Shown in pieces: positions 1,109 to 20,760 of a stretch of 21,807 nt of DNA. The stretch spans positions 1-21,807 of the forward strand of contig JAHIFA010000047.1 in NCBI GenBank assembly GCA_018901315.1, written 5' to 3'. The notes under the pieces are model-generated. The model ran no database searches, had not been told where the DNA came from, and saw only the letters and a program-made list of their open reading frames with translations. The number at the start of each line of letters is the position of its first letter. Position 1 is the stretch's first letter. The position numbers and the translations under genes were made by a program. This DNA is from Nanobdellota archaeon (GTDB lineage Archaea > Nanobdellota > Nanobdellia > Woesearchaeales > CG1-02-33-12).

Positions 1109-1181
1109 GCCCCGGTGGCTTAGTGGCTATAGCGCCACCTTGGTAAGGTGGAGGTCGCGAGTTCAACTCTCGCTCGGGGCT
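1109..1181 (+). tRNA. tRNA-Thr (anticodon GGT)
   Basis: A full cloverleaf folds by eye. The acceptor GCCCCGG pairs with TCGGGGC (last pair G-T), the D-arm is GC..GC, the anticodon stem CCACC pairs with GGTGG around loop TTGGTAA, the variable loop has 5 nt, and T-stem GCGAG pairs with CTCGC around TTCAACT. The anticodon GGT at 1142-1144 reads Thr codons ACC/ACU. The discriminator is T and CCA is not encoded, as usual in archaea. No intron is present. An oligo-T run follows directly and could end transcription. Confidence 0.96.
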
Positions 1182-1203: not shown

Positions 1204-1266
1204 TTAATTCTAATCTTATATTTTTAGTTGGGCCTGTGATCTAGTGGCTATGATGTCACCTTGACG

Positions 1267-1282
1267 ATTTAAAAAATCAAAA
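1267..1282 (+). other. tRNA-Val intron 1, canonical 37/38 position, 16 nt
   Basis: Exon TTGA (1261-1264) pairs with intron TCAA (1277-1280) as the 4-bp central helix. The bulges are CG|A (1265-1267) and AA|T (1281-1283). TTT (1268-1270) with AAA (1274-1276) forms the inner helix around a 3-nt loop, and the anticodon stem is the outer helix. Cleavage after G1266 and A1282 leaves loop TTGACGT. Sixteen nt is close to the smallest size that can fold the motif. Confidence 0.88.
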
Positions 1283-1304
1283 TGGTGAATATCCCCGGTT
1301 CGAA

Positions 1305-1400
1305 CAAATGGTTACGCTCATTTGATACGCAAAGAGTGACATTCAATTGCCTTGCAATTGAAGTCCCTCGTGCTCGCTTCGCTCGCAACCAATACGAAAG
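1305..1400 (+). other. tRNA-Val intron 2 in the T-loop (59/60), 96 nt
   Basis: Exon TTCG (1299-1302) pairs with intron CGAA (1395-1398). The bulges are AA|C (1303-1305) and AG|T (1399-1401). The outer helix is the T-stem CCCGG/CCGGG. The inner helix is TGGTT (1309-1313) with AACCA (1387-1391), separated from the bulges by A-A mismatches. The intron therefore meets the BHB rule, with a relaxed inner helix as is common at noncanonical sites. The interior holds a 9-bp hairpin (1342-1362) and one copy of a repeat module (1335-1388). T-loop introns at 59/60 are known from some Thermoproteota; their occurrence here is my reading of the sequence. Confidence 0.85.
1335..1388 (+). repeat. Hairpin repeat module, copy 1 (inside tRNA-Val intron 2)
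   Basis: The module is a conserved head AGTGACATT, a perfect 9-bp hairpin (TTCAATTGC / GCAATTGAA, loop CTT), then a conserved tail AAGTCCCTCG followed by TGCTCGCTTCGCTCGCAA. Copy 2 at 1445-1496 has the same head and tail but a different stem. The hairpin is thus kept while its sequence changes, which suggests selection on structure or a family with a variable stem. Confidence 0.75.
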
Positions 1401-1444
1401 TCCGGGTGGGCCCATCACAGCTTCTTGCTAAGCTGGCATGCATA

Positions 1445-1496
1445 AGCGACATTTTTTGCTTCGCAAAAAAGTCCCTCGAGCTCACTACGTTCGCAA
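1445..1496 (+). repeat. Hairpin repeat module, copy 2 (between tRNA-Val and AI-2E gene)
   Basis: This copy has head AGCGACATT, hairpin TTTTTTGC / GCAAAAAA around loop TTC, and tail AAGTCCCTCG followed by AGCTCACTACGTTCGCAA. Head and tail match copy 1 at all but about six bases; the stem differs but still pairs. It ends 8 nt before the ribosome site of the AI-2E gene and may form part of that mRNA leader or of the tRNA trailer. Confidence 0.75.
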
Positions 1497-1516
1497 TAAG
1501 TAAAGAGGTTGATAAT

Positions 1517-7478: not shown

Positions 7479-7544
7479 TATTTTGTTGTTTTATAGTTTT
7501 ATTAAAAAATATTAAATAAAATAATGATTATGGAGGATATTCAA

Positions 7545-9455
7545 ATGATAAAAATAAAATTCCCAGATGGCTCAAAAAAAGAATATGAAAAAGGAATAAG
7601 TGTAATAGAAGTAGCAAAAGATATAGGAGAAAAGCTTGCAGACGATGCAATTGCAGCGAAGCTTAACAATGAACTGGTTGACCTCAGCACAAAAATAAAC
7701 AAGGACTCAAATCTAAGGATAATAACCTTTAAGGATGATGCTGGTAAAGAGGCTTTCAGGCACTCAAGTGCTCACTTAATGGCCCAGGCAATAAAAAACC
7801 TTTACCCTGATGTTAAGTTTGCCATCGGACCTGCAGTTGATGAGGGCTTTTACTATGATATTGATTTAGACAAAAAACTTACACCAGAAGACCTTATAAA
7901 AATTGAAAAAGAAATGGATAAGATAGTCAAGGAAAACTTAAAGGTTGAAAGAACTAAGTTAACAAAAAAAGAGGCATTAAACCTCTTCAAGGATAATCCA
8001 TACAAAACAGAGATGATTAATGAGCTAGAAGATGAAAAAATAAGCATCTACAAGCAGGGCAATTTCATTGATTTCTGCCGTGGACCTCATGTTCCATCAA
8101 CAGGAAAACTAAAGGCGTTCAAACTGACAAAGCTTGCCGGAGCTTACTGGAGAGGAGATGCAAAAAACAAGCAATTGCAGAGAGTTTATGGAATCTCTTT
8201 CCCAGACAAAAAACAACTAAATGCATACCTGACCTTGTTAGAGGAAGCAGAAAAAAGGGACCACAGAAAGCTTGGAAAAGAGCTTGATTTGTTTAGCATG
8301 CATGATGAAGGCCCTGGTTTTCCGTTTTTTCATCCAAATGGAACTGTTATAATAAACATCTTAAAGGATTTCTGGAGAAAAGAGCATGCAAAAGCAGGCT
8401 ATACAGAGGTAATAACACCAATAATATTAAACAGAAATCTCTGGGAGCAGAGCGGCCACTGGGACCATTACAAGGAAAATATGTACTTTACAAAGATAGA
8501 TAACCAGGATTATGCAATAAAGCCCATGAACTGCCCAGGAGGAATATTAATCTACAAGACAAGATTAAGATCTTATAGAGAGCTTCCAATGAGAATGGGT
8601 GAGATGGGAATTGTTCACAGACATGAGCTATCTGGTGTTTTAGCTGGCTTGTTCAGAGTAAGGTGTTTCACCCAGGATGATGCCCATATCTACATGACAG
8701 AGGAGCAGATAAAAGATGAGATAATAGGAGTTATTAATCTTTCAGAAAAATTCTACAACCTCTTTGGATTTGAATACAATGTGGAGTTAAGCACAAAGCC
8801 AGACAATGCAATGGGCTCTGATGAAGCATGGGAAAAGGCAACTGCTGGATTAAAAGATGCGCTGGATGCAAAAAAGATGAAGTACAAGATAAACGAGGGA
8901 GATGGAGCATTTTATGGCCCAAAAATAGACTTTCATCTTAAAGACTGCTTAGGAAGGAAATGGCAGTGCGGCACTATACAGCTTGATTTTGCAATGCCTG
9001 AAAAATTCGATTTGACATATGAGGGAAAGGATGGAAAAAAGCACAGGCCCATCATGATTCATCGAACTATATACGGCTCAATAGAAAGGTTTATGGGAAT
9101 ATTAATAGAGCACTACGCAGGAAAGTTTCCTTTATGGCTCTCTCCAACACAAGCAGTAATCCTAAACATAAATGACAGCCATATTCCTTACGGGGAAAAG
9201 GTAAAACAGGAACTGGAAAAAAGCAACATAAGGGTTGAGACTGATTTTAGGGCAGAGACAATGCCAAAGAAAGTGAGGGAAGCACAGCTAAAGAAAATTC
9301 CTTTAATAATCACAGTTGGCGACAAGGAAGTTAAGAACAAAACAGTGGCAGTAAGAACACTTGACGGTAAGGTCTATTTTGGAATAAAGACAGAAGATTT
9401 AATCAAAAAGATGCAAGAGATTATTGATAACAAATCATCTGAGATTAAGTTTTAA
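7545..9455 (+). CDS. thrS: Threonyl-tRNA synthetase, bacterial-type
   Basis: 636 residues with the full bacterial/eukaryotic layout: TGS domain (~1-60), editing domain beginning RHSSAH (72-77) and including CRGPHVPSTG, class II core with PMNCPGG (Zn Cys), HRHELSG and RCFTQDDAHIY, then the anticodon-binding domain from ~540. It charges tRNA-Thr and clears Ser-tRNA-Thr. Canonical archaeal ThrRS has an unrelated DTD-like editing domain, so this copy is of the bacterial kind, which several DPANN groups carry. The start is set at 7545 because GGAGG (7532-7536) lies 8 nt upstream; the ATGs at 7524 and 7530 precede or overlap that site. A matching tRNA-Thr is at 1109. Confidence 0.96.
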   Translation: MIKIKFPDGSKKEYEKGISVIEVAKDIGEKLADDAIAAKLNNELVDLSTKINKDSNLRIITFKDDAGKEAFRHSSAHLMAQAIKNLYPDVKFAIGPAVDEGFYYDIDLDKKLTPEDLIKIEKEMDKIVKENLKVERTKLTKKEALNLFKDNPYKTEMINELEDEKISIYKQGNFIDFCRGPHVPSTGKLKAFKLTKLAGAYWRGDAKNKQLQRVYGISFPDKKQLNAYLTLLEEAEKRDHRKLGKELDLFSMHDEGPGFPFFHPNGTVIINILKDFWRKEHAKAGYTEVITPIILNRNLWEQSGHWDHYKENMYFTKIDNQDYAIKPMNCPGGILIYKTRLRSYRELPMRMGEMGIVHRHELSGVLAGLFRVRCFTQDDAHIYMTEEQIKDEIIGVINLSEKFYNLFGFEYNVELSTKPDNAMGSDEAWEKATAGLKDALDAKKMKYKINEGDGAFYGPKIDFHLKDCLGRKWQCGTIQLDFAMPEKFDLTYEGKDGKKHRPIMIHRTIYGSIERFMGILIEHYAGKFPLWLSPTQAVILNINDSHIPYGEKVKQELEKSNIRVETDFRAETMPKKVREAQLKKIPLIITVGDKEVKNKTVAVRTLDGKVYFGIKTEDLIKKMQEIIDNKSSEIKF

Positions 9456-9533: not shown

Positions 9534-9962
9534 ATGACAGATGTTTACAAAACTTCAAAGTACCCTAATCTTTTAAATGATTGTGGTTGCGATTATGCTA
9601 ACAAAATCATAGAAAAATTAGAAGGTATAGAAACATATGCTCTTGCTGAAGAATTAAGTCGCATTGAAACATTCAGAACATCCTTACAAAAAGATCAAGA
9701 AACTCCACTATCTAATGAAAGCCTGCAGAAAATGATTGATTCAGGAGAATACCCTCTTACTGTTGATGAAGAATTAAGTCATATTGGAGCATTCAGAACA
9801 TTCTTACCAAAAGATAAAGGAGCTCAATCCCCATCTGATGAAAGCCTACAGGACATGATTGATTCAGGGGAGGATTTCTTTGATATTCCTAAATTACATT
9901 TGAGATTATCAAATTATAAGTCAAAAGTTGTTAAAGAATCATATAGACCTTCTAGTAAATAA
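9534..9962 (+). CDS. Orphan protein with a ~40-residue tandem duplication
   Basis: 142 residues, hydrophilic, without signal or membrane helix; no known family recognised. Two copies of a ~40-residue unit follow each other (about residues 38-78 and 78-119). Both read EELS-x-I-x-x-FRT, then a lysine-rich turn, then ESLQxMIDSGE. Their DNA is also very similar (for example GAAGAATTAAGTC and ATGATTGATTCAGG in both), so the duplication is fairly recent. The ATG follows AAAGGT by 4 nt. It is a single-gene transcript behind a palindromic promoter and before a T-rich stretch. Confidence 0.75.
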   Translation: MTDVYKTSKYPNLLNDCGCDYANKIIEKLEGIETYALAEELSRIETFRTSLQKDQETPLSNESLQKMIDSGEYPLTVDEELSHIGAFRTFLPKDKGAQSPSDESLQDMIDSGEDFFDIPKLHLRLSNYKSKVVKESYRPSSK

Positions 9963-11869: not shown

Positions 11870-12181
11870 TTAGCTGAATTTTTTTATTATATGTTTTAAG
11901 ATGATTAGCTGTGTTTTATCCTTATCAGTTGTTTTCAAAAGTTCTTCTGCAAGCTTTTCCTCTTTAAATATCTCTTTTATCCAGCTAGCAAAATCATTTT
12001 TCATATCATTGACATGATGTCTGAATACTTCGTCAGCCATCTTATCAATCTGTTTAGACAAATCCAATACATTCTTCAAAACAGTTCCATCATTAACAAA
12101 AAAATAATGGTCTGAATTTGCGTCCTTCAATATATCTTCCTTTTCTATTTTTTTCTTTTTAACTTTTTTTTGTGTTTTCAT
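11870..12181 (-). CDS. Soluble DUF5752-like protein of the glucan operon
   Basis: 103 residues. A Lys-rich N-terminus precedes a domain with FFVNDGTVLKNVLDL, then DEVFRHHVNDMKNDFASWIKE, which matches the tail-anchored protein at the same positions (HH, NDF, W-I/V-x-x-I). Its ATG overlaps the GH57 stop codon (ATGA), so translation is coupled. The ribosome site GAGGTGG lies just upstream. It has no membrane helix. No catalytic motif is evident; a role as adaptor or regulator of glucan enzymes is inferred from position only. Confidence 0.75.
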   Translation of the reverse strand: MKTQKKVKKKKIEKEDILKDANSDHYFFVNDGTVLKNVLDLSKQIDKMADEVFRHHVNDMKNDFASWIKEIFKEEKLAEELLKTTDKDKTQLIILKHIIKKFS

Positions 12182-13395
12182 ACTACCACCTCTTTTTTTA
12201 AAGTATTTTTATCTGAATGCTCTTTTAACCTGAAGTTCACATCATTCAGTATGTTCATGAATGTTATGAATGCATCATAAGGATTATCATAAGGATTAAA
12301 GTATTTATGCACATCGCCATCATTGAACCACTTTGTGCACATGTAATAAAAATGGTCGCTTGTCTGGAGATTTCTCCAGTCATTAATGAGTTTTTTATCC
12401 TTTGATTTTTTTATGGTGTCTTCAATCTGGTATACCTCATTTATTGCTGACTTCTGCATGTCATTTCCATCCCATGCGCTTGTATCCCTTTCAATATCTG
12501 CCCATGAAACAGGGCTGTGAATATCTAATTCTGCAACCGGATTATATGCTTTTATTGCCTCACTAGGTGTCTTAAAATCATTATCAGGGTGTTTTAATAA
12601 CTCCCGGGGCAAATGCCTTAAAAAATTAAATATTCCTGTATCTGCCCACTGGTGCTCTCCAAAGGTCTCATAATCCATAAAAAGATTTACTAGATTGCCA
12701 TTTCCATTAACAGCATTAACCCATTTAGTATATTTATCAACGGTTAGAGGCCATTCCTTCCAGCCCTTATCTGAAAACCTGAATGCAATATCGTCAGAAA
12801 GCTTGTAATTTTTAAGCAAAAGCTTAATTCTTGATGTTGTTTTTGGAGTATAAATAAAATTAGGTGATCTCCAGCCAAGTATATGGTCTGCTCCCTCTGC
12901 AAGTATTCCCTTGTAACCCATTGATTCAACAAAATTTGCAAGCTCATTATTATAAACAAGCTCTGTATTCCTGAAAATAGACGGACTTTGCTTAAACAAG
13001 CTTCTTATCTTTTTGTTATGCAAAATAACCTGCTCCTTAAATTCCTGTTTTGAATGCAGGAATGCAAGCGAATGGTAATATGTCTCATCAAGTATCTCAA
13101 CCTTTCCAGTATCAACCAAATCCTTAAATGATTGCAAAACTTCTGGCATAAATTCCTCAAATTGCTCTAGGATAATCCCTGAAAAAGAATAGCTTATCTT
13201 GAATTCTTCATGCTTGTTAAGCAAATCAAGCATTAGCTTATTTGTTGGAAGATAACATTTTTCTGCAACCTTTTGTAGTATATCTAAATTCTTCTGCTTG
13301 TTAGTATAACTATGATTCTTTCCAATCTCAAATACATTATAATTCCTCAGCCTGTAAGGCTGGTGAACCTGAAAATAAAAACAAATTGATACCAT
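12178..13395 (-). CDS. Glycoside hydrolase family 57 (alpha-amylase-like)
   Basis: 405 residues, nearly all one GH57 barrel. It begins with FYFQVHQPYRLR (family region 1 with HQP). FRNTELVYNNELA carries the catalytic nucleophile Glu145 and FMDYETFGEHQ the acid Asp241. The size matches short archaeal GH57 alpha-amylase-type enzymes rather than the longer (>500 aa) GH57 branching enzymes, so hydrolysis or transfer at alpha-1,4 bonds is more likely. There is no signal peptide, so it acts in the cytoplasm. It lies 9 nt after the SDR stop and overlaps the next gene by 4 nt, which points to tight co-translation in the minus-strand glucan operon. Confidence 0.9.
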   Translation of the reverse strand: MVSICFYFQVHQPYRLRNYNVFEIGKNHSYTNKQKNLDILQKVAEKCYLPTNKLMLDLLNKHEEFKISYSFSGIILEQFEEFMPEVLQSFKDLVDTGKVEILDETYYHSLAFLHSKQEFKEQVILHNKKIRSLFKQSPSIFRNTELVYNNELANFVESMGYKGILAEGADHILGWRSPNFIYTPKTTSRIKLLLKNYKLSDDIAFRFSDKGWKEWPLTVDKYTKWVNAVNGNGNLVNLFMDYETFGEHQWADTGIFNFLRHLPRELLKHPDNDFKTPSEAIKAYNPVAELDIHSPVSWADIERDTSAWDGNDMQKSAINEVYQIEDTIKKSKDKKLINDWRNLQTSDHFYYMCTKWFNDGDVHKYFNPYDNPYDAFITFMNILNDVNFRLKEHSDKNTLKKEVVV

Positions 13396-13404
13396 TTTTA
13401 AGCT

Positions 13405-14154
13405 TTAATGTGCAAGCCACCCTCCGTCAACAAATAATGTAATGCCAGTTATATAATCTGAATTATCTGAGGCAAGGAATAGGGCTGCATTTGCTATGTC
13501 TTCTGGCTTTCCTATCCTGTTTAATGGAATATTGGCAAGCAGTGTTTCTTTTGTTGCTTTATCTTCTAATAAGTCTTTTGTCATAGGTGTTTCTATTACA
13601 CCTGGGCCTATTGCATTAACATTTATTTTATATTGCCCTAGCTCTAAAGCAAGCTCTCTTGTCATATTTATTATTCCTCCTTTTGAAGCACAATAAGCAC
13701 TAGAATTTGCAAATCCTACCTGGCCTGCAATAGATGCTATATTAATGATCTTGCCTTTGCCCTGTTTTATCATCTCTGGAACAGCAGCTTTTGAACAGAG
13801 AAAAACCCCTTTAAGGTTTATGTCTAGAATCCTGTCAAAATCCTGCTCTGTAACATCAGTCAATGATTTTTGCATATATATTCCTGCATTATTAACAAGT
13901 ATATCAACCTTGCCAAACTTTTCTGTTGTTAAGTTTATCATCTTGCTAACATCTTCAGGATTGGAAACATCTGCCTTAACAGCCAAAGCATTTCCATTAA
14001 TATCCTTAATCTCTTCAACTACTTTATTGCAATCATCTATGTTTATGTCACTAACAACAACATTGGCTCCTGCTTTTGCCAAGGCAAGTGCTATTGCCTT
14101 TCCAATCCCTCTTCTTGAGCCTGTTACAATTGCTACTTTATTTTTTAGATTCAT
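13405..14154 (-). CDS. Short-chain dehydrogenase/reductase (FabG/glucose dehydrogenase-like)
   Basis: 249 residues, a classical SDR with cofactor motif TGSRRGIG (11-18), NNAG (88-91) and catalytic Ser141, Tyr154 and Lys158 (YCASK). Arg residues after TGS suggest NADP(H), while the Asp at the end of strand 2 (VVVSDIN) suggests NAD(H), so cofactor choice is unclear. Names such as 3-oxoacyl-ACP reductase or glucose 1-dehydrogenase are only best-hit style labels; its place between GT4 and GH57 favours a sugar substrate. AAGGAGGT lies 6 nt before the ATG and overlaps the end of the GT4 gene. Confidence 0.9.
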   Translation of the reverse strand: MNLKNKVAIVTGSRRGIGKAIALALAKAGANVVVSDINIDDCNKVVEEIKDINGNALAVKADVSNPEDVSKMINLTTEKFGKVDILVNNAGIYMQKSLTDVTEQDFDRILDINLKGVFLCSKAAVPEMIKQGKGKIINIASIAGQVGFANSSAYCASKGGIINMTRELALELGQYKINVNAIGPGVIETPMTKDLLEDKATKETLLANIPLNRIGKPEDIANAALFLASDNSDYITGITLFVDGGWLAH

Positions 14155-14167
14155 TCTAATACCTCCT

Positions 14168-15388
14168 TTATGAACTACTTAATACTTTTTTATAAACCTC
14201 AATGCATTTTTTGGCACTGTCATCCCAGCTGAACTTTCTTATTTCTATTAATCCATGCTCTTTCAAGCAATGATGCAATGCATTATATTTAAGTACTGCG
14301 ATTATTTTGTTGGCTATTTCATCAATATCCCAAAAATCAACCTTAAGGCAGTTTTTTATAACCTCTGAAACACCTGACTGCTTTGAGATGATAACCGGAG
14401 TTCCATTTCTCATTGCTTCTAATGGCGTTATTCCAAATGGCTCTGAAACAGAGGGCATAACATACAAGTCTGCCATTTTATATGCCCTGTCAATATTATC
14501 GCCACGCAAAAATCCGGTAAATAAGACATGCTGTGCAATCCCTAACCTTGCTGTTCTTTCTATCATGCCTGCTTCCATATCACCAGAGCCTGCAACAATA
14601 AACTTAACATTTTTTTCATTTTCAAGGACTTTTTTAGCAGCATCAAGGAAATAATCAGGGCCTTTTTGCAGTGTTATTCTTCCAAGGAATAAAACTATCT
14701 TATCCTGGCTTTTTATCTTAAACTCTTCAGTGTCAGGGAAGCTTTTAAATTCAACAGCATTATGCACAACAAATACTTTTTCAGGGCTTATTCCGTAATG
14801 CTCTATTATTTTATTTTTTGTAAAGTTAGATACTGCTATAATCAAATCTGCAGCATGCATTCCCATTCTTTCAATATCATAAACAGCCTGGTTTGGGTGA
14901 CCTCCTGTCCGATCAAACTCAGTTGCATGAACATGCACAAGCAATGGTTTTTTTGACACTTTTTTTGCTTCAATTCCTGCCAAGTAAGTCATCCAGTCAT
15001 GGCAATGTATTAAATCAAAAATCTCATTTTCAGCTATTTCTCTTGCCTTCATGGCATATCTATACACCTCTTCAAATAAATTTTGGCCATAAATTCTGCT
15101 AAAGTTCTTGTCTGAATTCATACATCTTTTCTTATGCATAGTTTCATATCCCTCTGATGATATATAAGGAACCAATAATGAATCTACAGTTTTTATGTTA
15201 ACAAAACTTGTAGAAAATGCAATTATCATATCAACAAAATCTGATTTAATTGGCTTTGGCGCTATTGGGATTACAAATGTTATATTAATGCCCTGTTTGC
15301 TTAGGCCTTTTGTAAGGCCATAGCATGCTGTTCCCAATCCCCCTGTATTAAAAGGAGGAAACTCCCAACCAAACATCAAAACTTTCAT
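14168..15388 (-). CDS. GT4 glycosyltransferase, glycogen-synthase-like
   Basis: 406 residues with the GT-B fold of the archaeal GT4 glycogen/starch synthase group. N-terminal MKVLMFGWEFPPFNTGGLGTA has the donor loop with GGLG, HCHDWMTY follows in the N-domain, VLFLGRITLQKGPD opens the C-domain, and EPFGITPLE gives the E-x7-E retaining motif. It would add glucose from ADP- or UDP-glucose to an alpha-1,4-glucan; related GT4 enzymes transfer other sugars. It is the first gene of the minus-strand operon, with ribosome site GAGGA just upstream of the ATG and a promoter shared back-to-back with the Lrp-like gene. Confidence 0.88.
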   Translation of the reverse strand: MKVLMFGWEFPPFNTGGLGTACYGLTKGLSKQGINITFVIPIAPKPIKSDFVDMIIAFSTSFVNIKTVDSLLVPYISSEGYETMHKKRCMNSDKNFSRIYGQNLFEEVYRYAMKAREIAENEIFDLIHCHDWMTYLAGIEAKKVSKKPLLVHVHATEFDRTGGHPNQAVYDIERMGMHAADLIIAVSNFTKNKIIEHYGISPEKVFVVHNAVEFKSFPDTEEFKIKSQDKIVLFLGRITLQKGPDYFLDAAKKVLENEKNVKFIVAGSGDMEAGMIERTARLGIAQHVLFTGFLRGDNIDRAYKMADLYVMPSVSEPFGITPLEAMRNGTPVIISKQSGVSEVIKNCLKVDFWDIDEIANKIIAVLKYNALHHCLKEHGLIEIRKFSWDDSAKKCIEVYKKVLSSS

Positions 15389-15411
15389 TCAAATCCTCTT
15401 TGTATAGCTAT

Positions 15412-15428
15412 ATCCAACTAAGTTAGAT
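15412..15428. promoter_or_regulatory. Near-perfect palindrome at the GT4 operon promoter
   Basis: A 17-nt palindrome with one mismatch per arm: ATC-C-AACT-A-AGTT-A-GAT. It lies about 24-40 nt upstream of the GT4 start codon, over the expected transcription start downstream of a TATA-like element (reverse complement around 15440-15450). It is a good operator candidate for the divergently encoded Lrp-like protein. Confidence 0.4.
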
Positions 15429-15459
15429 AGAAATAGTTATTACTTAAATAAGTTCTCGA

Positions 15460-15473
15460 TTACTATGCAGTAA
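15460..15473. promoter_or_regulatory. Second inverted repeat in the divergent promoter region
   Basis: TTACT and AGTAA flank ATGC, and a further TTACTG occurs about 15 nt downstream. It lies mid-way between the two divergent promoters (gap 15389-15574) and could be another binding site for the same regulator. Confidence 0.25.
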
Positions 15474-15527
15474 CATAAACCATGATTTACTGATAAATTC
15501 GCCCTTAAAGAAACTGAACAAAACATA

Positions 15528-15536
15528 TTTATATAA
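15528..15536 (+). promoter_or_regulatory. TATA promoter of the Lrp-like/GT3/GalT operon
   Basis: TTTATATAA with AACAAAACA upstream. The start site would be near 15557-15561, just before the ribosome site GGGGTGGT (15562-15569). Confidence 0.6.
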
Positions 15537-15574
15537 GTATTGTTTATTATGTGACATAAAAGGGGTGGTTTAGT

Positions 15575-16153
15575 ATCAATATAGTTGAAATTGACCAGCA
15601 AGAGAAGGTTATAATAAGAGAGCTTATCAAAAATCCCAAGATTTCTGACAACCAGATAAGCAAAAACACAAAAGTTCCTGTAAAAACAGTCAACAGGAAA
15701 AGGAAGATTCTTGAAAAAAGGGGGATAATTAATTATTTCACTTGCCTTAACAATGGAATTGATGGAACTGGAAGATTTACTGCAAAACAGCAATATATAA
15801 TAACATTCAAATATGGCATAACTAGAAGCAGTATAATTGAGAAAATTGGAAAGGAGATGCCGAGGCTGATAGAGCTGAAGCATATAGCAGATTGTTCTGT
15901 TGGTGACAAGGATGGCCATGCAATTATCGCAATGACAATTGAGTCAAGGGTTGAATCTGACATAATTGAGGTCTTTAATGCTGAGATTCTTCCAAAATTA
16001 AAAAGGCTGCTTGGAGAAGATGCCGTAATAAAAACAGATGTTCTTACATTCAACTCACACTTCATAATAATGCATAATTACATGCCTTTGATTAACATGA
16101 GAAATGGAAAGATAAAAGAAGAATGGTCTGATGACCTGGTATTTGTTGATTAA
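15575..16153 (+). CDS. Lrp/AsnC-like transcription regulator, noncanonical start
   Basis: About 192 residues. An N-terminal winged-helix HTH contains the run SDNQISKNTKVPVKTVNRKR and ends KILEKRGIINYF. A RAM-like domain follows (IITFKYGITRSSIIEKI, then GHAIIAMTIESR and a final strand with KTDVLTFN). The frame is open from a stop at 15557-15559 but holds no ATG, GTG or TTG until ATG 15857, which would delete the whole HTH. A clear TATA and ribosome site GGGGTGGT lead to ATC at 15575, which gives the expected N-terminus; ATA at 15581 is the alternative. It is divergent from the GT4 operon and directly upstream of GT3, so it probably controls glucan metabolism in response to a small ligand. Confidence 0.8.
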   Translation: MNIVEIDQQEKVIIRELIKNPKISDNQISKNTKVPVKTVNRKRKILEKRGIINYFTCLNNGIDGTGRFTAKQQYIITFKYGITRSSIIEKIGKEMPRLIELKHIADCSVGDKDGHAIIAMTIESRVESDIIEVFNAEILPKLKRLLGEDAVIKTDVLTFNSHFIIMHNYMPLINMRNGKIKEEWSDDLVFVD

Positions 16154-16154
16154 A

Positions 16155-17942
16155 ATGGAAAAAGAAGCAGATTATTTATTTGAGGTTTCATGGGAAATAT
16201 GCAACAAAGTTGGAGGCATTTATACTGTTGTTAAATCAAAGGCTGCTGAAATAATGGGGTATTATAAGGAAAATTATTTTGCAATAGGACCTTTTTTTCC
16301 AGAAAAAGTGGCTGGCGAATTTCAGGAAAAAGTTCCTTCAGATAAATTAAGGCAGGTATTTGAAAAACTGCAAAAACAAGGCATAAAGTGCCATTACGGC
16401 AGCTGGCTTATTAAGGGAGAGCCTAACACAATTCTGGTTGATTTTAGCGGGTTTACATCCAAAAAAGATGAAATAAAAACAAGCTTGTGGCAGAATTTCA
16501 AGATAGACTCACTCAATACACAATATTTTGATTTTGATGAGCCTATTATATGGAGCTATGCTGTTGGAAAACTTCTTGAAGAAATAAAAAATACTTTCAA
16601 TGATAAAAAGATTGTTGCTCAATTCCATGAATGGCTAGCTGGAGCTGGCCTGCTTTACCTAAAGCAGATGAATGTTAAGATTGGAACTGTCTTTACAACA
16701 CATGCAACAATACTCGGAAGAACAATGTCTTTTGCCAATGAAGAGCTTTATGAAACATTTGATAAAATAAATCCTGAAAAAAAGGCCTATGATTATGGCA
16801 TACAGGCAAAATATCTTACAGAAAAGCAAAGTGCATTAAATGCAGATGTTTTTACAACTGTAAGTGAGATTACAGCCCTAGAAGCAGAGCACCTTCTTGG
16901 GAAAAAACCAGATGTTCTTTTGCCAAACGGGCTTGACCTTAAGAAGTTTCCAACATTTGAGGAAGCATCTATAAAACATCGCTTATACAGGGAAAGAATA
17001 AGGGAGTTTTTATTGTATTATTTTTTTCCATATTATTCATTTGACCTTGATGATACTCTTCTTTATTTCTTATGCGGAAGATATGAATTCAGGGCAAAGG
17101 GCATTGACATATTTGTAAAAGCGCTGGCAAAGCTTAATGAAAAGCTAAAGAGAAACAATTCCAAAAAAACAATTGTTGTTTTTTTCTGGGTTCCGGGAAA
17201 TATAAGAAGCATAAAAACAGAATTATTAGAAAGCAGGGCATTTTTTGAAGATATAAAAGATTCTGTTAACGATGATATAAATGAGATTAAAAACAAGATA
17301 ATTTATTCCCTAGTTTCAAAAAAAGGCATTACAGAAAAAACAATTTTTAATGAAGATTTTATGCATGAAAATAAAAAAAAGGTTTTGAAGCTTATGAAAA
17401 AAGGAAATCCTGCATTATCAACACATGATTTGCATGATGAACAAAATGACCCTATTATCAAAGCATTTAATGAGAACGGGCTTACAAACAAAAAAGAAGA
17501 CAGGGTAAAGGTTGTGTTTTATCCAATTTATCTAACAGGAGCAGATGGCCTGCTTGATTTAAGCTATTATGAATGCATGCAGGGCTCTCATTTAGGGGTA
17601 TTTCCATCATATTACGAGCCATGGGGTTATACACCTTTAGAAGCAGCTGCACTTGGTGTTTCATCTGTAACAACAGACTTAGCTGGGTTTGGCAGGTATG
17701 TTAATGAAAAATCAGTTCAAAGCAAAAATCCTGGCATATTTGTTTTGAAAAGATTAGGCAAAAAAGATGATGAGGTTGTTAATGAGCTCACTAATGCATT
17801 TTATTATTTCAGCAATTTATCAAAGCAAGAAAGGATAAAAAACAAGATGGAAGCGCAAAGGTTAGCTTCATTGGCTGACTGGGATCTTTTAATTAAAAAT
17901 TATATTCAAGCACATAATCTTGCTGTAAAGAGGCTTGGTTAA
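16155..17942 (+). CDS. Glycogen synthase, GT3 family (eukaryotic GYS-like)
   Basis: 595 residues. The N-terminus LFEVSWEICNKVGGIYTVV (8-26) is the GT3 hallmark. It continues with AQFHEWLAGAG, FTTHATILGR, PNGLDLKKF, the C-domain with GRYEFRAKGID and the E-x7-E motif EPWGYTPLE (Glu488, Glu496). The reaction is transfer of glucose from a nucleotide-glucose to a glycogen end with retention. The yeast/animal regulatory arginine cluster and phosphorylated tails are not apparent. The ATG lies 1 nt after the regulator's stop (TAA-A-ATG), without a ribosome site, so reinitiation is likely; an in-frame ATG at 16131 overlaps the upstream gene and is less likely. Confidence 0.95.
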   Translation: MEKEADYLFEVSWEICNKVGGIYTVVKSKAAEIMGYYKENYFAIGPFFPEKVAGEFQEKVPSDKLRQVFEKLQKQGIKCHYGSWLIKGEPNTILVDFSGFTSKKDEIKTSLWQNFKIDSLNTQYFDFDEPIIWSYAVGKLLEEIKNTFNDKKIVAQFHEWLAGAGLLYLKQMNVKIGTVFTTHATILGRTMSFANEELYETFDKINPEKKAYDYGIQAKYLTEKQSALNADVFTTVSEITALEAEHLLGKKPDVLLPNGLDLKKFPTFEEASIKHRLYRERIREFLLYYFFPYYSFDLDDTLLYFLCGRYEFRAKGIDIFVKALAKLNEKLKRNNSKKTIVVFFWVPGNIRSIKTELLESRAFFEDIKDSVNDDINEIKNKIIYSLVSKKGITEKTIFNEDFMHENKKKVLKLMKKGNPALSTHDLHDEQNDPIIKAFNENGLTNKKEDRVKVVFYPIYLTGADGLLDLSYYECMQGSHLGVFPSYYEPWGYTPLEAAALGVSSVTTDLAGFGRYVNEKSVQSKNPGIFVLKRLGKKDDEVVNELTNAFYYFSNLSKQERIKNKMEAQRLASLADWDLLIKNYIQAHNLAVKRLG

Positions 17943-17943
17943 A

Positions 17944-18885
17944 ATGGAGCTTAGAAAGGATTATATTTTGGATAGATGGGTTATTATAGCTTCTGAAAGA
18001 AAAAAAAGGCCCAAAGAATTTAAAAAAATCAAGGCAAAAAAAGAGGGAATTTGCTATTTCTGCCCCGGCAATGAAAATCTCACACCAAAGGAAACTGGAA
18101 GGATTGAAAAAGATGGCAAGTGGATTATAAGATGGTTTCCAAACAAGTTTCCTGCTGTAAGCCATGAGGGAAGCCCTTCAATAAGAAGTGCAAACAAGTA
18201 TTTCACATATGCTGATGCATTTGGAATCCATGAAGTAATAGTTGAAACAACTAATCATGATAAGCAGTTGGCTGACTTATCAGAAGAGCATATAAAAGAA
18301 GTTTTAAAGGTGTATGCTAACAGGATAACTGAATTAAGCAAAACAGATGGCACAAAATATGTAATTATCTTCAAGAATGAAGGGATGGAAGCAGGAACCT
18401 CATTGATTCATTCGCACACACAGGTTATGACCTATAACAAAGTTCCTGTTCTTGTTGAACAAGAGGTCAATGCAGCAAGAAGTTATGGGGGCTGCCCATA
18501 TTGTGAAATAATTGATATTGAGAAAAACAGTTACAGAAGAGTCTTTGAAAATGATAATTTTGTAAGCTTTACGCCATATGCCTCAAGATTCAACTATGAA
18601 ATCTGGGTATTTCCAAAAGAGCATATAAGGAATATAACAGAGATGGATGAAAACAAGCTATTGGATCTGGCTTCAATGCTTAAAAAGATCCTGCTAAAGC
18701 TAAGGGAAATAAATCTTTCATATAATTTCTTCCTGCATTATGCTCCTGAGGGAAAAGACTTACATTTTCATATTGAGGTTTGTCCAAGGCTTGCAACATG
18801 GGCTGGTTTTGAGCTTGCAACAAATGCAACAATAAACTCTGTAAGCCCCGAGGATGCTGCAAAATTTTACAAGGGAGAGGAATAG
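17944..18885 (+). CDS. galT: GalT-like hexose-1-phosphate nucleotidylyltransferase
   Basis: 313 residues from the ATG one base after the GT3 stop (same TAA-A-ATG junction as before). HIT-superfamily GalT pattern: Cys37-x2-Cys40 in YFCPGNENLTPKE, the active site HSHTQ (156-160; His158 would carry the nucleotidyl group), a second Cys pair in GGCPYCEII (184/187) and DLHFHIEVCPR near the C-terminus. Classical GalT exchanges UMP between glucose-1-P and galactose-1-P. Homologs can act as nucleotide-sugar phosphorylases, and its place next to a glycogen synthase suggests making or recycling the glucosyl donor. No GalK or GalE is nearby. Confidence 0.9.
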   Translation: MELRKDYILDRWVIIASERKKRPKEFKKIKAKKEGICYFCPGNENLTPKETGRIEKDGKWIIRWFPNKFPAVSHEGSPSIRSANKYFTYADAFGIHEVIVETTNHDKQLADLSEEHIKEVLKVYANRITELSKTDGTKYVIIFKNEGMEAGTSLIHSHTQVMTYNKVPVLVEQEVNAARSYGGCPYCEIIDIEKNSYRRVFENDNFVSFTPYASRFNYEIWVFPKEHIRNITEMDENKLLDLASMLKKILLKLREINLSYNFFLHYAPEGKDLHFHIEVCPRLATWAGFELATNATINSVSPEDAAKFYKGEE

Positions 18886-18933
18886 AAAAAGGCAAGAAGT
18901 ATACATCTTAATTTAGTTTTTCTGCTCAATAAA

Positions 18934-20760
18934 ATGGTAAATATAGTTCATTTATTAAATAATCACAAGATAGAAAGCAAATCAGCTAAAGATAATAGAT
19001 TTCTGATTACAAACAGGAAAGGAGGATATTTTTGCCTTGCAAATGAAAATAAAAGCAGATATGACGGGCTTTTCTTTTTTGATGAAAAGATGTACAAAAT
19101 TATTGAAAGCCTGCATATAGTTGGTTCTGCTAAGGCAGGCAAGATAATCCACAAATTTTATGAAATTAAAAGTGAATGTGACAGTGCAACTGAAACATTT
19201 TTTATGCCCCACAATTATGATTCATTAGTTTATGAGATAACCCAGCCAAGTAATATTGAAATAGTCCTTGATGCAAAAAAGAGCTATGATCAAAGGCAGT
19301 GGGGCAGATTTTATACTATTTGGCAGGAAGATGATAAAATAATAGTTAAGTTTGTTAAAAAAACAGATTCAAGGGAAGACAGCTCTGATGGCAGGGAAGA
19401 ATATTCTTTATTCTTGGTGCTTAAGTTTGAAGGCATGTTCAAGAAAGTTGAAGAATGGGAAAAAAGAAGTTATGAATTTGACAAAAAAAGGAATTCAATG
19501 CCTTATGAAAGGTATGTTTTTTCAGCGCTAACTTTAAAGACAGAGAAGGTTGTTTTAAGCTTCTCAAAAAACAAGGAAAAGGCAAAAAAAGAAGCAGACT
19601 ATGTTTTTAGGAATATTGAAAGTTTAAGAAAAAAGCAAAAAGAGTATTATGATACCTTATTAAAATTAAGAAAAAATATTAAAAATGAAGTTATGATGGC
19701 ATATTTTTGCACAATAAACTCACTTGATTCATTGGTTGTTGATAATAAAGGTATTTTTGCTGGTCTGCCATGGTTTTTCCAGTTCTGGACAAGAGATGAG
19801 GCCATCTCATTAAAGGCCTTGATGTTATGCGAGAATTTTAGTTTAGCAAAAAATATCTTGTTTAGGCATCTGAAATCTGTTTTGCACGATGGAAAGCTTC
19901 CAACAAAGTCAGGTTCTTTATTAAGGAGCGTGGACTCTGTTGGCTGGATTTCAAAAAGAGCAGAAGACTTGATTTATATCTTAAAAAATAAAAAAATTCT
20001 TGAAAAGCAATTTACAAGAAATGAAATTGAAGAAATAGAGGAAAGAATTGGGCATTCTCTTGATTTTATGATAAAATACCACACAAGAGAACATCTTGTA
20101 TTGAATAATGAAGATGAAACATGGATGGACAGCCTGCAAAGAGATGGTTTCAGGATAGAGATTCAGGCAATGCAGCTAAGCATGTATAGGCTGATGCATG
20201 AGATTACAAATAACAGAATTTATCGAGAACTTGAAGATAGTTTAAAAAAAGAGGTTATGGATAAGTTTTGGAACAAAAAATATCTTGCAGATGGTTTAAA
20301 TGATTTTACTATTAGACCAAACATTTTCATTGCTGCTTATATTTACCCTGAAATTTTGACAAAAAAAGAATGGATTACATGCTTTGATAATGTACTAAAG
20401 CATTTATGGAACGATTGGGGTGGAGTTTCAACAATAGACAAAAATAATCCCTTGTTTAGGCCAGAGCATACAGGAGAGAATAATGAAAGCTATCACAACG
20501 GTGATTCATGGTTCTGGATAAACAACCTTGCTGCAATTACTTTGTATAGATTGGATAAAAAAAGATACAAAAAATACATTGATAAAATATTGGAGGCAAG
20601 CACAAAAGAGATTTTATGGCAGGGAGCAATAGGCCATCATGCAGAATTGTCAAGTTCTTGTGGCTTAAGGTCAGAGGGCTGCCTGGCCCAAGCATGGTCT
20701 GCTGCAATGTATATTGAGCTGATAAATGAAATTTTTAATGTAGCTCAAAAGTTTAGATAA
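18934..20760 (+). CDS. Glycogen debranching enzyme (amylo-alpha-1,6-glucosidase, GDE/GH133)
   Basis: 608 residues. The N-terminal beta domain (1-~235, starting with the typical LITNRKGGYF) is followed by an (alpha/alpha)6 barrel. The barrel has FQFWTRDEA (283-290), ETWMDS with Asp399, and GHHAELSSSCGLRSEGCLAQAWS with Glu571 at the second catalytic position. It removes alpha-1,6 branches from glycogen in the cytoplasm. Length and order fit archaeal GDE proteins. It lies 48 nt after GalT and probably belongs to the same transcription unit, completing the plus-strand glucan arm. Confidence 0.94.
   Translation: MVNIVHLLNNHKIESKSAKDNRFLITNRKGGYFCLANENKSRYDGLFFFDEKMYKIIESLHIVGSAKAGKIIHKFYEIKSECDSATETFFMPHNYDSLVYEITQPSNIEIVLDAKKSYDQRQWGRFYTIWQEDDKIIVKFVKKTDSREDSSDGREEYSLFLVLKFEGMFKKVEEWEKRSYEFDKKRNSMPYERYVFSALTLKTEKVVLSFSKNKEKAKKEADYVFRNIESLRKKQKEYYDTLLKLRKNIKNEVMMAYFCTINSLDSLVVDNKGIFAGLPWFFQFWTRDEAISLKALMLCENFSLAKNILFRHLKSVLHDGKLPTKSGSLLRSVDSVGWISKRAEDLIYILKNKKILEKQFTRNEIEEIEERIGHSLDFMIKYHTREHLVLNNEDETWMDSLQRDGFRIEIQAMQLSMYRLMHEITNNRIYRELEDSLKKEVMDKFWNKKYLADGLNDFTIRPNIFIAAYIYPEILTKKEWITCFDNVLKHLWNDWGGVSTIDKNNPLFRPEHTGENNESYHNGDSWFWINNLAAITLYRLDKKRYKKYIDKILEASTKEILWQGAIGHHAELSSSCGLRSEGCLAQAWSAAMYIELINEIFNVAQKFR

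Follow-up and report, generated by a model that had tools for sequence, protein, structure and literature searches.

A probably mobile family of T-loop tRNA introns in a Woesearchaeota-like archaeal lineage

A 21,807-nt stretch of DNA from a Nanobdellota archaeon (the window; assembly GCA_018901315.1, contig JAHIFA010000047.1, positions 1 to 21,807) carries a tRNA-Val(GAC) gene interrupted by two introns with bulge-helix-bulge (BHB) junctions. The second intron, in the T-loop, is a copy of a dispersed, fast-changing sequence family, which the original prediction, made from the letters of the window, had missed. The comparisons reported here make it very likely that this is a mobile family of tRNA introns, spliced by the endonuclease EndA, whose copies are exchanged among tRNA genes in a Woesearchaeota-like lineage. 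The window corresponds to contig C81 in a metagenome-assembled genome (MAG), G000, with 160 contigs, a size of 871 kb, and a completeness of 89%; relatives G001 to G003 belong to the same genus and G006 to another genus of the same family. The nearest records of the threonyl-tRNA synthetase (ThrRS) encoded in the window came from a Nanoarchaeota MAG (87% identity) and a Woesearchaeota MAG (82%), that is, from DPANN archaea and not from Thermoproteales, in agreement with the DPANN-like genome that had been proposed.

The interrupted tRNA-Val(GAC) gene

With both introns removed, the gene yielded a 73-nt cloverleaf that ARAGORN called tRNA-Val(gac). The two junctions have 4-bp central helices (TTGA/TCAA and TTCG/CGAA) with two 3-nt bulges each and are strict BHB motifs. 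The limits of the gene, its two interruptions, and their exact agreement with the BHB rule were as the original prediction had described them, and we confirmed that the window holds a real tRNA-Val(GAC) gene with two BHB introns. Its parts and surroundings are as follows.

1230..1414, + strand: tRNA-Val(GAC) gene, doubly interrupted; spliced form called Val(gac) by ARAGORN
1230..1266, + strand: exon 1 (positions 1-37), from the cloverleaf of the spliced form (ARAGORN, Val(gac))
1267..1282, + strand: intron 1, 16 nt, canonical site 37/38, BHB junction
1283..1304, + strand: middle exon (positions 38-59), from the cloverleaf of the spliced form
1305..1400, + strand: intron 2, 96 nt, T-loop site 59/60, a copy of the hairpin element, strict BHB
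1401..1414, + strand: last exon (position 60 to the discriminator base)
1305..1331 (approximate limits), + strand: 5' hairpin of the element (CAAATG/CATTTG) and ACGCA motif, from stem statistics
1372..1387, + strand: right-end motif of the element, GCTCGCTTCGCTCGCA, from a motif search of five family genomes
1417..1497, + strand: trailer copy of the hairpin element, beginning 2 nt past the discriminator base, with a right-end motif at 1480-1495
1109..1181, + strand: tRNA-Thr(GGT), intact, upstream of Val(GAC), a synteny marker (ARAGORN, Rfam)

The unspliced gene was not called by ARAGORN, even when introns of up to 150 nt were allowed, and gave no match to the Rfam model RF00005 at the gathering score. 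In this region both detected only the neighboring tRNA-Thr, which bears out the expectation that standard annotation would miss the gene. On the question, raised along with the original prediction, of a second Val(GAC) gene, tRNA searches found none in this 89%-complete MAG. The intron at 37/38 is also present in Val(GAC) of G001 (14 nt), G002 (17 nt), G003 (16 nt), and G006 (15 nt) and is absent in G007. Across the four same-genus genomes the Val(GAC) exons are identical or nearly so and the introns differ. tRNA-Thr(GGT) is a conserved neighbor, since it also adjoins Val(GAC) in G006 and at locus L024.

A dispersed element family and its turnover

When window positions 1300-1500 were compared with the rest of the MAG, copies were found on many contigs, and most of the longer ones lay in the T-loops of other tRNAs. 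Five genomes of the family were searched with a covariance model of tRNA tolerant of T-loop inserts. Eleven of the 31 tRNA genes found in G000 were interrupted at 59/60, and 10 of the 31 carried the hairpin element: Val(GAC), Glu(CTC), Ser(GGA, TGA, and GCT), Pro(GGG and TGG), Lys(CTT), and Arg(CCT and TCT). tRNA-Asp of the same genome has a plain 18-nt 59/60 intron without the element. Interrupted genes among the covariance-model matches numbered 14 of 31 in G001, 16 of 31 in G002, and 12 of 25 in G003.

A BHB-based finder of T-loop introns, together with targeted stretches, gave 55 genes interrupted at 59/60, to which the covariance model added three, so that 58 genes were compared. As a control, the finder was run on 78 bacterial loci (2.55 million strand-bases), where none of its 24 matches was a tRNA after splicing; 52 of the 55 genes of the family set were called tRNA by ARAGORN once the T-loop intron was removed. 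Two finder matches were dropped (L025, a protein-coding false positive, and L135, with an over-long 5' end), and the set of 58 omits two known interrupted genes, G002:C119:5096-5329 (with the element) and G003:C28:9729-9857 (Arg, with a truncated element). Genes with several introns were named by their anticodon arm, since ARAGORN misnames some of them (G003:C50, for example, is Gln(CTG) and was called Asp); the intact tRNA genes of G007 are unnamed in the inventory.

The element was present in 53 of the 58 genes. T-loop introns of this set span 16 to 202 nt, and those with the element about 50 to 200 nt. A 5'-end stem of at least 6 bp occurred in 47 of the 53 element introns (shuffled mean, 8.7; maximum, 16; 200 shuffles), and its variants, among them CAGCTT/AAGCTG, CAAATG/CATTTG, and CAACTGG/TCAGTTG, keep the pairing by compensation. 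A lenient threshold of at least 4 bp was reached by 52 of the 53, but with a shuffled mean of 38.9 it carried little information, and the 6-bp count was used. Short 59/60 introns free of the element were found in Asp of G000 to G003 and Ile of G002 (16-20 nt) and in the outgroups. A repeat scan within the window did not give its two element copies among the repeat families it listed, and an exact search of viral contigs with the 25-nt 5' hairpin gave no match. On the bottom strand, many variants of the right end of the element (window 1372-1387, for example) have the sequence GCGAGC-GNA or GNNA-GCGAGC and could fold into a mini-hairpin containing tandem G-A mismatches, possibly as a DNA-level or antisense structure.

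Apparent inserts in the D-loop region were also noticed in tRNA-Lys(CTT), Arg, Gln, and Phe genes, some of them beside T-loop or anticodon introns, which would give up to three introns per gene. The genes concerned are the following.

G000:C6:2970-3167 (L114)
G000:C39:303-532 (L229)
G001:C40:5873-5991 (L193)
G002:C14:1105-1202 (L215)
G003:C50:7076-7175 (L227)

The element is not confined to T-loops. The five family genomes contain 53 exact right-end motifs, of which 42 lie in T-loop introns, 8 lie no more than 130 nt downstream of a same-strand tRNA, and 3 lie elsewhere, all on contig G000:C115; 50 of the 53 are therefore at tRNA genes. The backwards control pattern matched once in each of the five genomes, and one more right-end motif, in G017, falls outside the classified set. 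An element starting 0 to 2 nt past the discriminator base follows 11 of the 55 interrupted genes, and T-loop and trailer copies have their start and their right-end motif in common. Copies off tRNA genes were seen on two short contigs, at G000:C115:2684-6864 (L319) and G000:C5:1-220 (L231); the reading frames of C115 resemble toxin-antitoxin genes by eye, and one copy there is flanked by CTCGAA...TTGAAATTC, like a T-loop junction. At L188 (G001:C46:54600-55250), tRNA-Pro(CGG) is followed by an element, then by the tRNA 3' end again in decayed form, and then by the apparent start of another element, in what looks like a tandem array of element plus tRNA 3' end.

A DNA search of 99 relatives, with a query that is partly tRNA sequence, matched 14 genomes. 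The matches of G006, G016, and G044 fall at the tRNA end of the query and so are no evidence of the element. With these set aside, the element was matched in 8 of the 9 family genomes; in G006, Glu(TTC) carries an element intron. Beyond the family, support was confined to G017, whose Met, Trp, and Arg genes (the Arg gene called Ser by ARAGORN) have 59/60 introns with a like 5' hairpin; G083 and G090 gave weak matches. Further 59/60 introns, of other sequence, were found in G006, G012, G016, and G017, outgroups from which selected matches were taken and no frequency was derived. All 18 tRNA matches in G026 were 83 nt or shorter, so no 59/60 intron was seen there. An intron at this site had been called unexpected in a DPANN-like genome; that view needs changing, as 59/60 introns are common in this family and present in other families of the order.

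Introns changed much faster than the genes that carry them. Among 52 pairs of same-genus orthologues, median identity was 0.97 for exons and 0.64 for introns, and introns of different tRNAs (1255 pairs, five genomes) had a median identity of 0.62. The comparison used 52 introns, one Pro(CGG) element intron of G002 being absent from it. Judged by pairwise identity rather than by a tree, the nearest intron was in a different tRNA for 34 of the 48 introns with an orthologue among those compared, and the orthologue was nearest for 14; a further 4 introns have no orthologue there. The 96-nt intron of Val(GAC) is a case in point, being 91% identical to the T-loop intron of Glu(CTC) in the same genome and 72% identical to its best orthologue. 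An automatic split into core and tail, which cut many introns too early, gave median identities within and between tRNAs of 0.64 and 0.64 for cores and of 0.42 and 0.33 for tails.

Furthermore, orthologous sites were found both with and without the element. Val(GAC) of G006 has an uninterrupted T-loop and no trailer copy, yet it keeps the 37/38 intron and has the same tRNA-Thr(GGT) beside it. G001 has intact Val(CAC) and Gly(CCC) genes; their orthologues in G002, G003, and G007 are interrupted. For Val(TAC), G002 shows an element intron without a trailer copy, and G001 an intact T-loop together with a trailer copy. In G005, downstream of an intact Val(CAC), there is an element terminated by an intron-like tail plus a second tRNA 3' end. 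Ile(TAT) carries a plain 20-nt intron in G002 versus an 81-nt element intron in G001. Together, these sequence comparisons show that element copies are replaced, and exchanged among tRNA genes, within the time span of a single genus.

Junction pairing, the splicing endonuclease, and routes of spread

Junction pairing was evaluated on genes placed by the covariance model and stem pairing, blind to the BHB motif. Matches to the model had to be at least 91 nt long; of 62, four had no T-loop insert and three, which the BHB-based finder recovered, were set aside because the 3' end of the model match was off, which left 55. The 4-bp central helix was intact in 53 of these. Base 57 and its intron partner formed A-T in 29 genes, G-C in 18, and G-U in 6 and were mismatched in 2. 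Among cross-tRNA pairs of introns at least 85% identical (39 pairs), 18 differ in base 57, and in all 18 the partner had switched in the matching sense. The 5' and 3' ends of the same intron also paired better than swapped ends (mean, 3.91 of 6 versus 2.71; 0 of 5000 permutations). BHB pairing, whose loss in relatives the original prediction had named as telling against it, is therefore kept in nearly all of these genes, often by compensatory change, and the pattern suggests that the T-loop junction is under selection. In addition, all Pro and Asp genes found in G000 to G003 bear a T-loop intron, and no Pro or Asp gene with an intact T-loop was present among the tRNA genes named in these four MAGs, any one of which could hold an unseen copy. 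Therefore, splicing must work if these amino acids are decoded.

The original prediction had taken the introns to imply a splicing endonuclease of broad specificity. We found a single EndA gene in G000, with one PF01974 match and one PF02778 match in the same gene. The protein has 195 residues (196-residue open frame) in two domains; its best PDB matches were the Nanoarchaeum catalytic subunit and the Methanocaldococcus jannaschii EndA, and with the latter (1a79) it is collinear, with short gaps only and no long insertion. No second subunit, fused three-unit protein, or CSL/ASL loop was found, although a β subunit could have been missed in an 89%-complete MAG. EndA of G000, whose class had been left as a question, thus looks like the α4 type and is probably of that type. 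As a rule, α4 enzymes require a strict BHB. Since one α4-like gene stands beside strict BHB junctions, a broad-specificity enzyme is not required, and this part of the prediction was not supported. Broad specificity belongs to the (αβ)2 and ε2 types in the accounts cited (PMC6379350, PMC12397907).

These observations fit the following scheme. The Val(GAC) gene would be functional; after transcription, EndA, encoded by a single gene and probably of the α4 type, would cut the two BHB motifs, and a ligase would then join the exons. The T-loop intron would be a copy of a hairpin-rich, noncoding element family centered on this DPANN family, with copies settling in the conserved T-loop (59/60) of many isotypes and in the first bases past tRNA 3' ends. 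Copies would persist where their junction with the host T-loop again forms a strict BHB, which would let the host splice them out of the RNA; intron pairing with position 57 indeed follows the host, and selection would account for this. Gene conversion between copies and transposition by a factor acting in trans are the candidate routes of spread. Recombination between copies is the most economical route of exchange, and new sites may need something more.

Several points weigh against a mobile, spliced family. Splicing is deduced from the DNA. No transposase, reverse transcriptase, or homing endonuclease was tied to the copies, the loci inspected being those of Y1, so active transposition is at most a candidate route. 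Gene inventories may be incomplete, since the covariance-model search scored 150 of the 229-282 candidates per genome and the genomes are MAGs. The central helix is mismatched in 2 of the 55 genes, Val(TAC) and Pro(GGG), both of G002. Neither the 18 pairs nor the covariation counts are independent in the phylogenetic sense. For single loci, gain or loss was read from few genomes and from identities, without a tree. Finally, the short element-free 59/60 introns indicate that some sites may be old introns that were colonized or converted and not new ones.

In another explanation, old, fixed-site T-loop introns had their inner sequence reshuffled solely by gene conversion among repeats, the element being a passive repeat that does not insert into intronless tRNAs. 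The element-free 59/60 introns in other families of the order, the short introns (16-20 nt) that Asp and Ile genes of this genus carry, and the failure to find a linked mobilizer are all in its favor. However, the intact orthologues in Val(GAC) of G006, Val(TAC), Val(CAC), and Gly(CCC) of G001, and Val(CAC) of G005 would each have to be explained by loss, which could have happened, and element copies also stand next to tRNA 3' ends, sites that offer no intron for conversion. We regard this explanation as possible but rather doubtful.

Less probable, and in our view unlikely, is a non-autonomous DNA transposon, similar to miniature inverted-repeat transposable elements (MITEs) or repetitive extragenic palindromic (REP) sequences, that is mobilized in trans by a Y1/HUH or other transposase and targets T-loop-like and tRNA 3'-end DNA, splicing simply making the insertions tolerable. 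The start and right-end motif common to T-loop and trailer copies, the three right-end motifs outside tRNA genes on G000:C115, and the presence of Y1 transposase genes in 6 of 9 genomes tested, G000 included, are consistent with it. Yet the five Y1 loci of G000 to G003 match the introns over 13-16 nt or not at all; Y1 was not found in G005, G008, or the single-contig G017, though all three have copies; and the location of 50 of 53 right-end motifs at tRNA genes is unusual for such transposons. A MITE of the Y1/IS200-605 type in particular was rejected, as no ends were in common at the five Y1 loci of G000 to G003 (the Y1 loci of G006 and G007 lay outside this set).

Other mobilizers were set aside as well. 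Retro-copying by a resident reverse transcriptase was among them, the domain occurring in 2 of 9 genomes and not in G000. LAGLIDADG domains of homing endonucleases occur in 9 of 9 genomes, in frames of 219-1260 residues, and were compared with the introns by coordinates alone; at G017:C1:1042219-1042617, one match (244-residue frame) lies 28 nt from a long tRNA match, on the other strand. A mobile intron bearing a homing endonuclease gene was discarded because T-loop introns (16-202 nt) are too short to encode one. Integrases are present in 8 of 9 genomes and are not tied to the element; several, at about 280 residues, are plausibly Xer-like. That the interrupted gene is a pseudogene whose insert is never spliced would suit a gene known here from its DNA only, but is very improbable given the failure to find another Val(GAC) in the MAG, exons near-identical in four same-genus genomes while introns differ, BHB pairing maintained by compensation, and interrupted Pro and Asp genes without intact substitutes among the genes found.

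Three further features of the window were noted. The ThrRS gene (7524-9455) matches Firmicutes enzymes with ~60% identity over nearly its full length, which suggests a bacterial-type, horizontally acquired gene. A small open reading frame (9534-9962) contains an internal 66-nt duplication (9640-9825) whose copies are 83% identical. Positions 12178-20760 hold a storage-polysaccharide cluster with, according to Pfam, a GH57 enzyme, a group 1 glycosyltransferase, glycogen synthase, and a debranching enzyme.

Comparison with known introns and mobile elements

The origin and spread of archaeal tRNA introns is an open question for which the evidence has so far come largely from Thermoproteales. The family described here provides an independent and apparently recent case, in which interrupted and intact orthologous sites, near-identical introns, and a host-tracking base pair would make gain, loss, and selection for splicing measurable species by species. 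It also bears on gene counts, as annotation with finders that lack a BHB step may underestimate the tRNA numbers of such DPANN genomes. ARAGORN and Rfam overlook genes of this kind; tRNAscan-SE 2.0 includes a BHB step (PMC8450103).

In Thermoproteales, similar BHB introns common to different tRNA species led Fujishima et al. (2010) to propose movement between tRNA genes of that order by a mechanism described as unknown in the accounts cited (PMC4033280, PMC4090602, PMC10714607), and one of these treats such introns as transposable elements (PMC10714607). Our family resembles that system, as far as those accounts describe it, in having similar introns in different tRNAs of one genome and intron relationships that are discordant with those of the tRNAs. 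It differs in its DPANN host, single T-loop position, multi-hairpin element, copies at tRNA 3' ends, and α4-like EndA. In Caldiarchaeum, too, the gain of a tRNA intron is tied to mobile DNA and to direct repeats of tRNA fragments, although the insert described there, at a tRNA-Thr locus, is 1.8 kb long and contains a putative recombinase gene, whereas ours are noncoding copies of ~100 nt in many tRNAs (PMC3293823). Archaeal BHB introns in general comprise strict and relaxed forms; strict h-B-H-B-h' junctions are cut by EndA, and T-arm introns are known among archaea; in this the introns studied here are alike. The same sources associate more intron-containing tRNA genes with loop-bearing (CSL/ASL) EndAs (PMC6379350, PMC12397907). 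By contrast, we found many 59/60 introns with strict motifs beside an EndA without insertion, which calls this reported trend into question.

Searches of the open-license PMC literature on DPANN T-loop introns, Woesearchaeota tRNA introns, tRNA intron transposition, and archaeal introners gave no account of this system among the titles and abstracts listed. Introners, or introner-like elements, of eukaryotes are dispersed families that create introns which the host splices out; they use the spliceosome and mostly strike protein genes, whereas the element here uses BHB motifs, EndA, and tRNA genes. We tentatively propose, as a reading with a reasonable though less than even chance of being right, that this noncoding element, found almost only at tRNA genes of one DPANN family, spreads through the T-loop and the tRNA 3' flank, is hidden by strict BHB motifs, and is a prokaryotic, protein-spliced counterpart of introners that continues to turn over among sister species in a lineage whose endonuclease is not visibly relaxed. 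Events of this kind are already known from Thermoproteales; what is new, as far as our searches show, is the lineage, the use of a single T-loop site, the hairpin element, the presence of copies at 3' ends, and the α4-like EndA.
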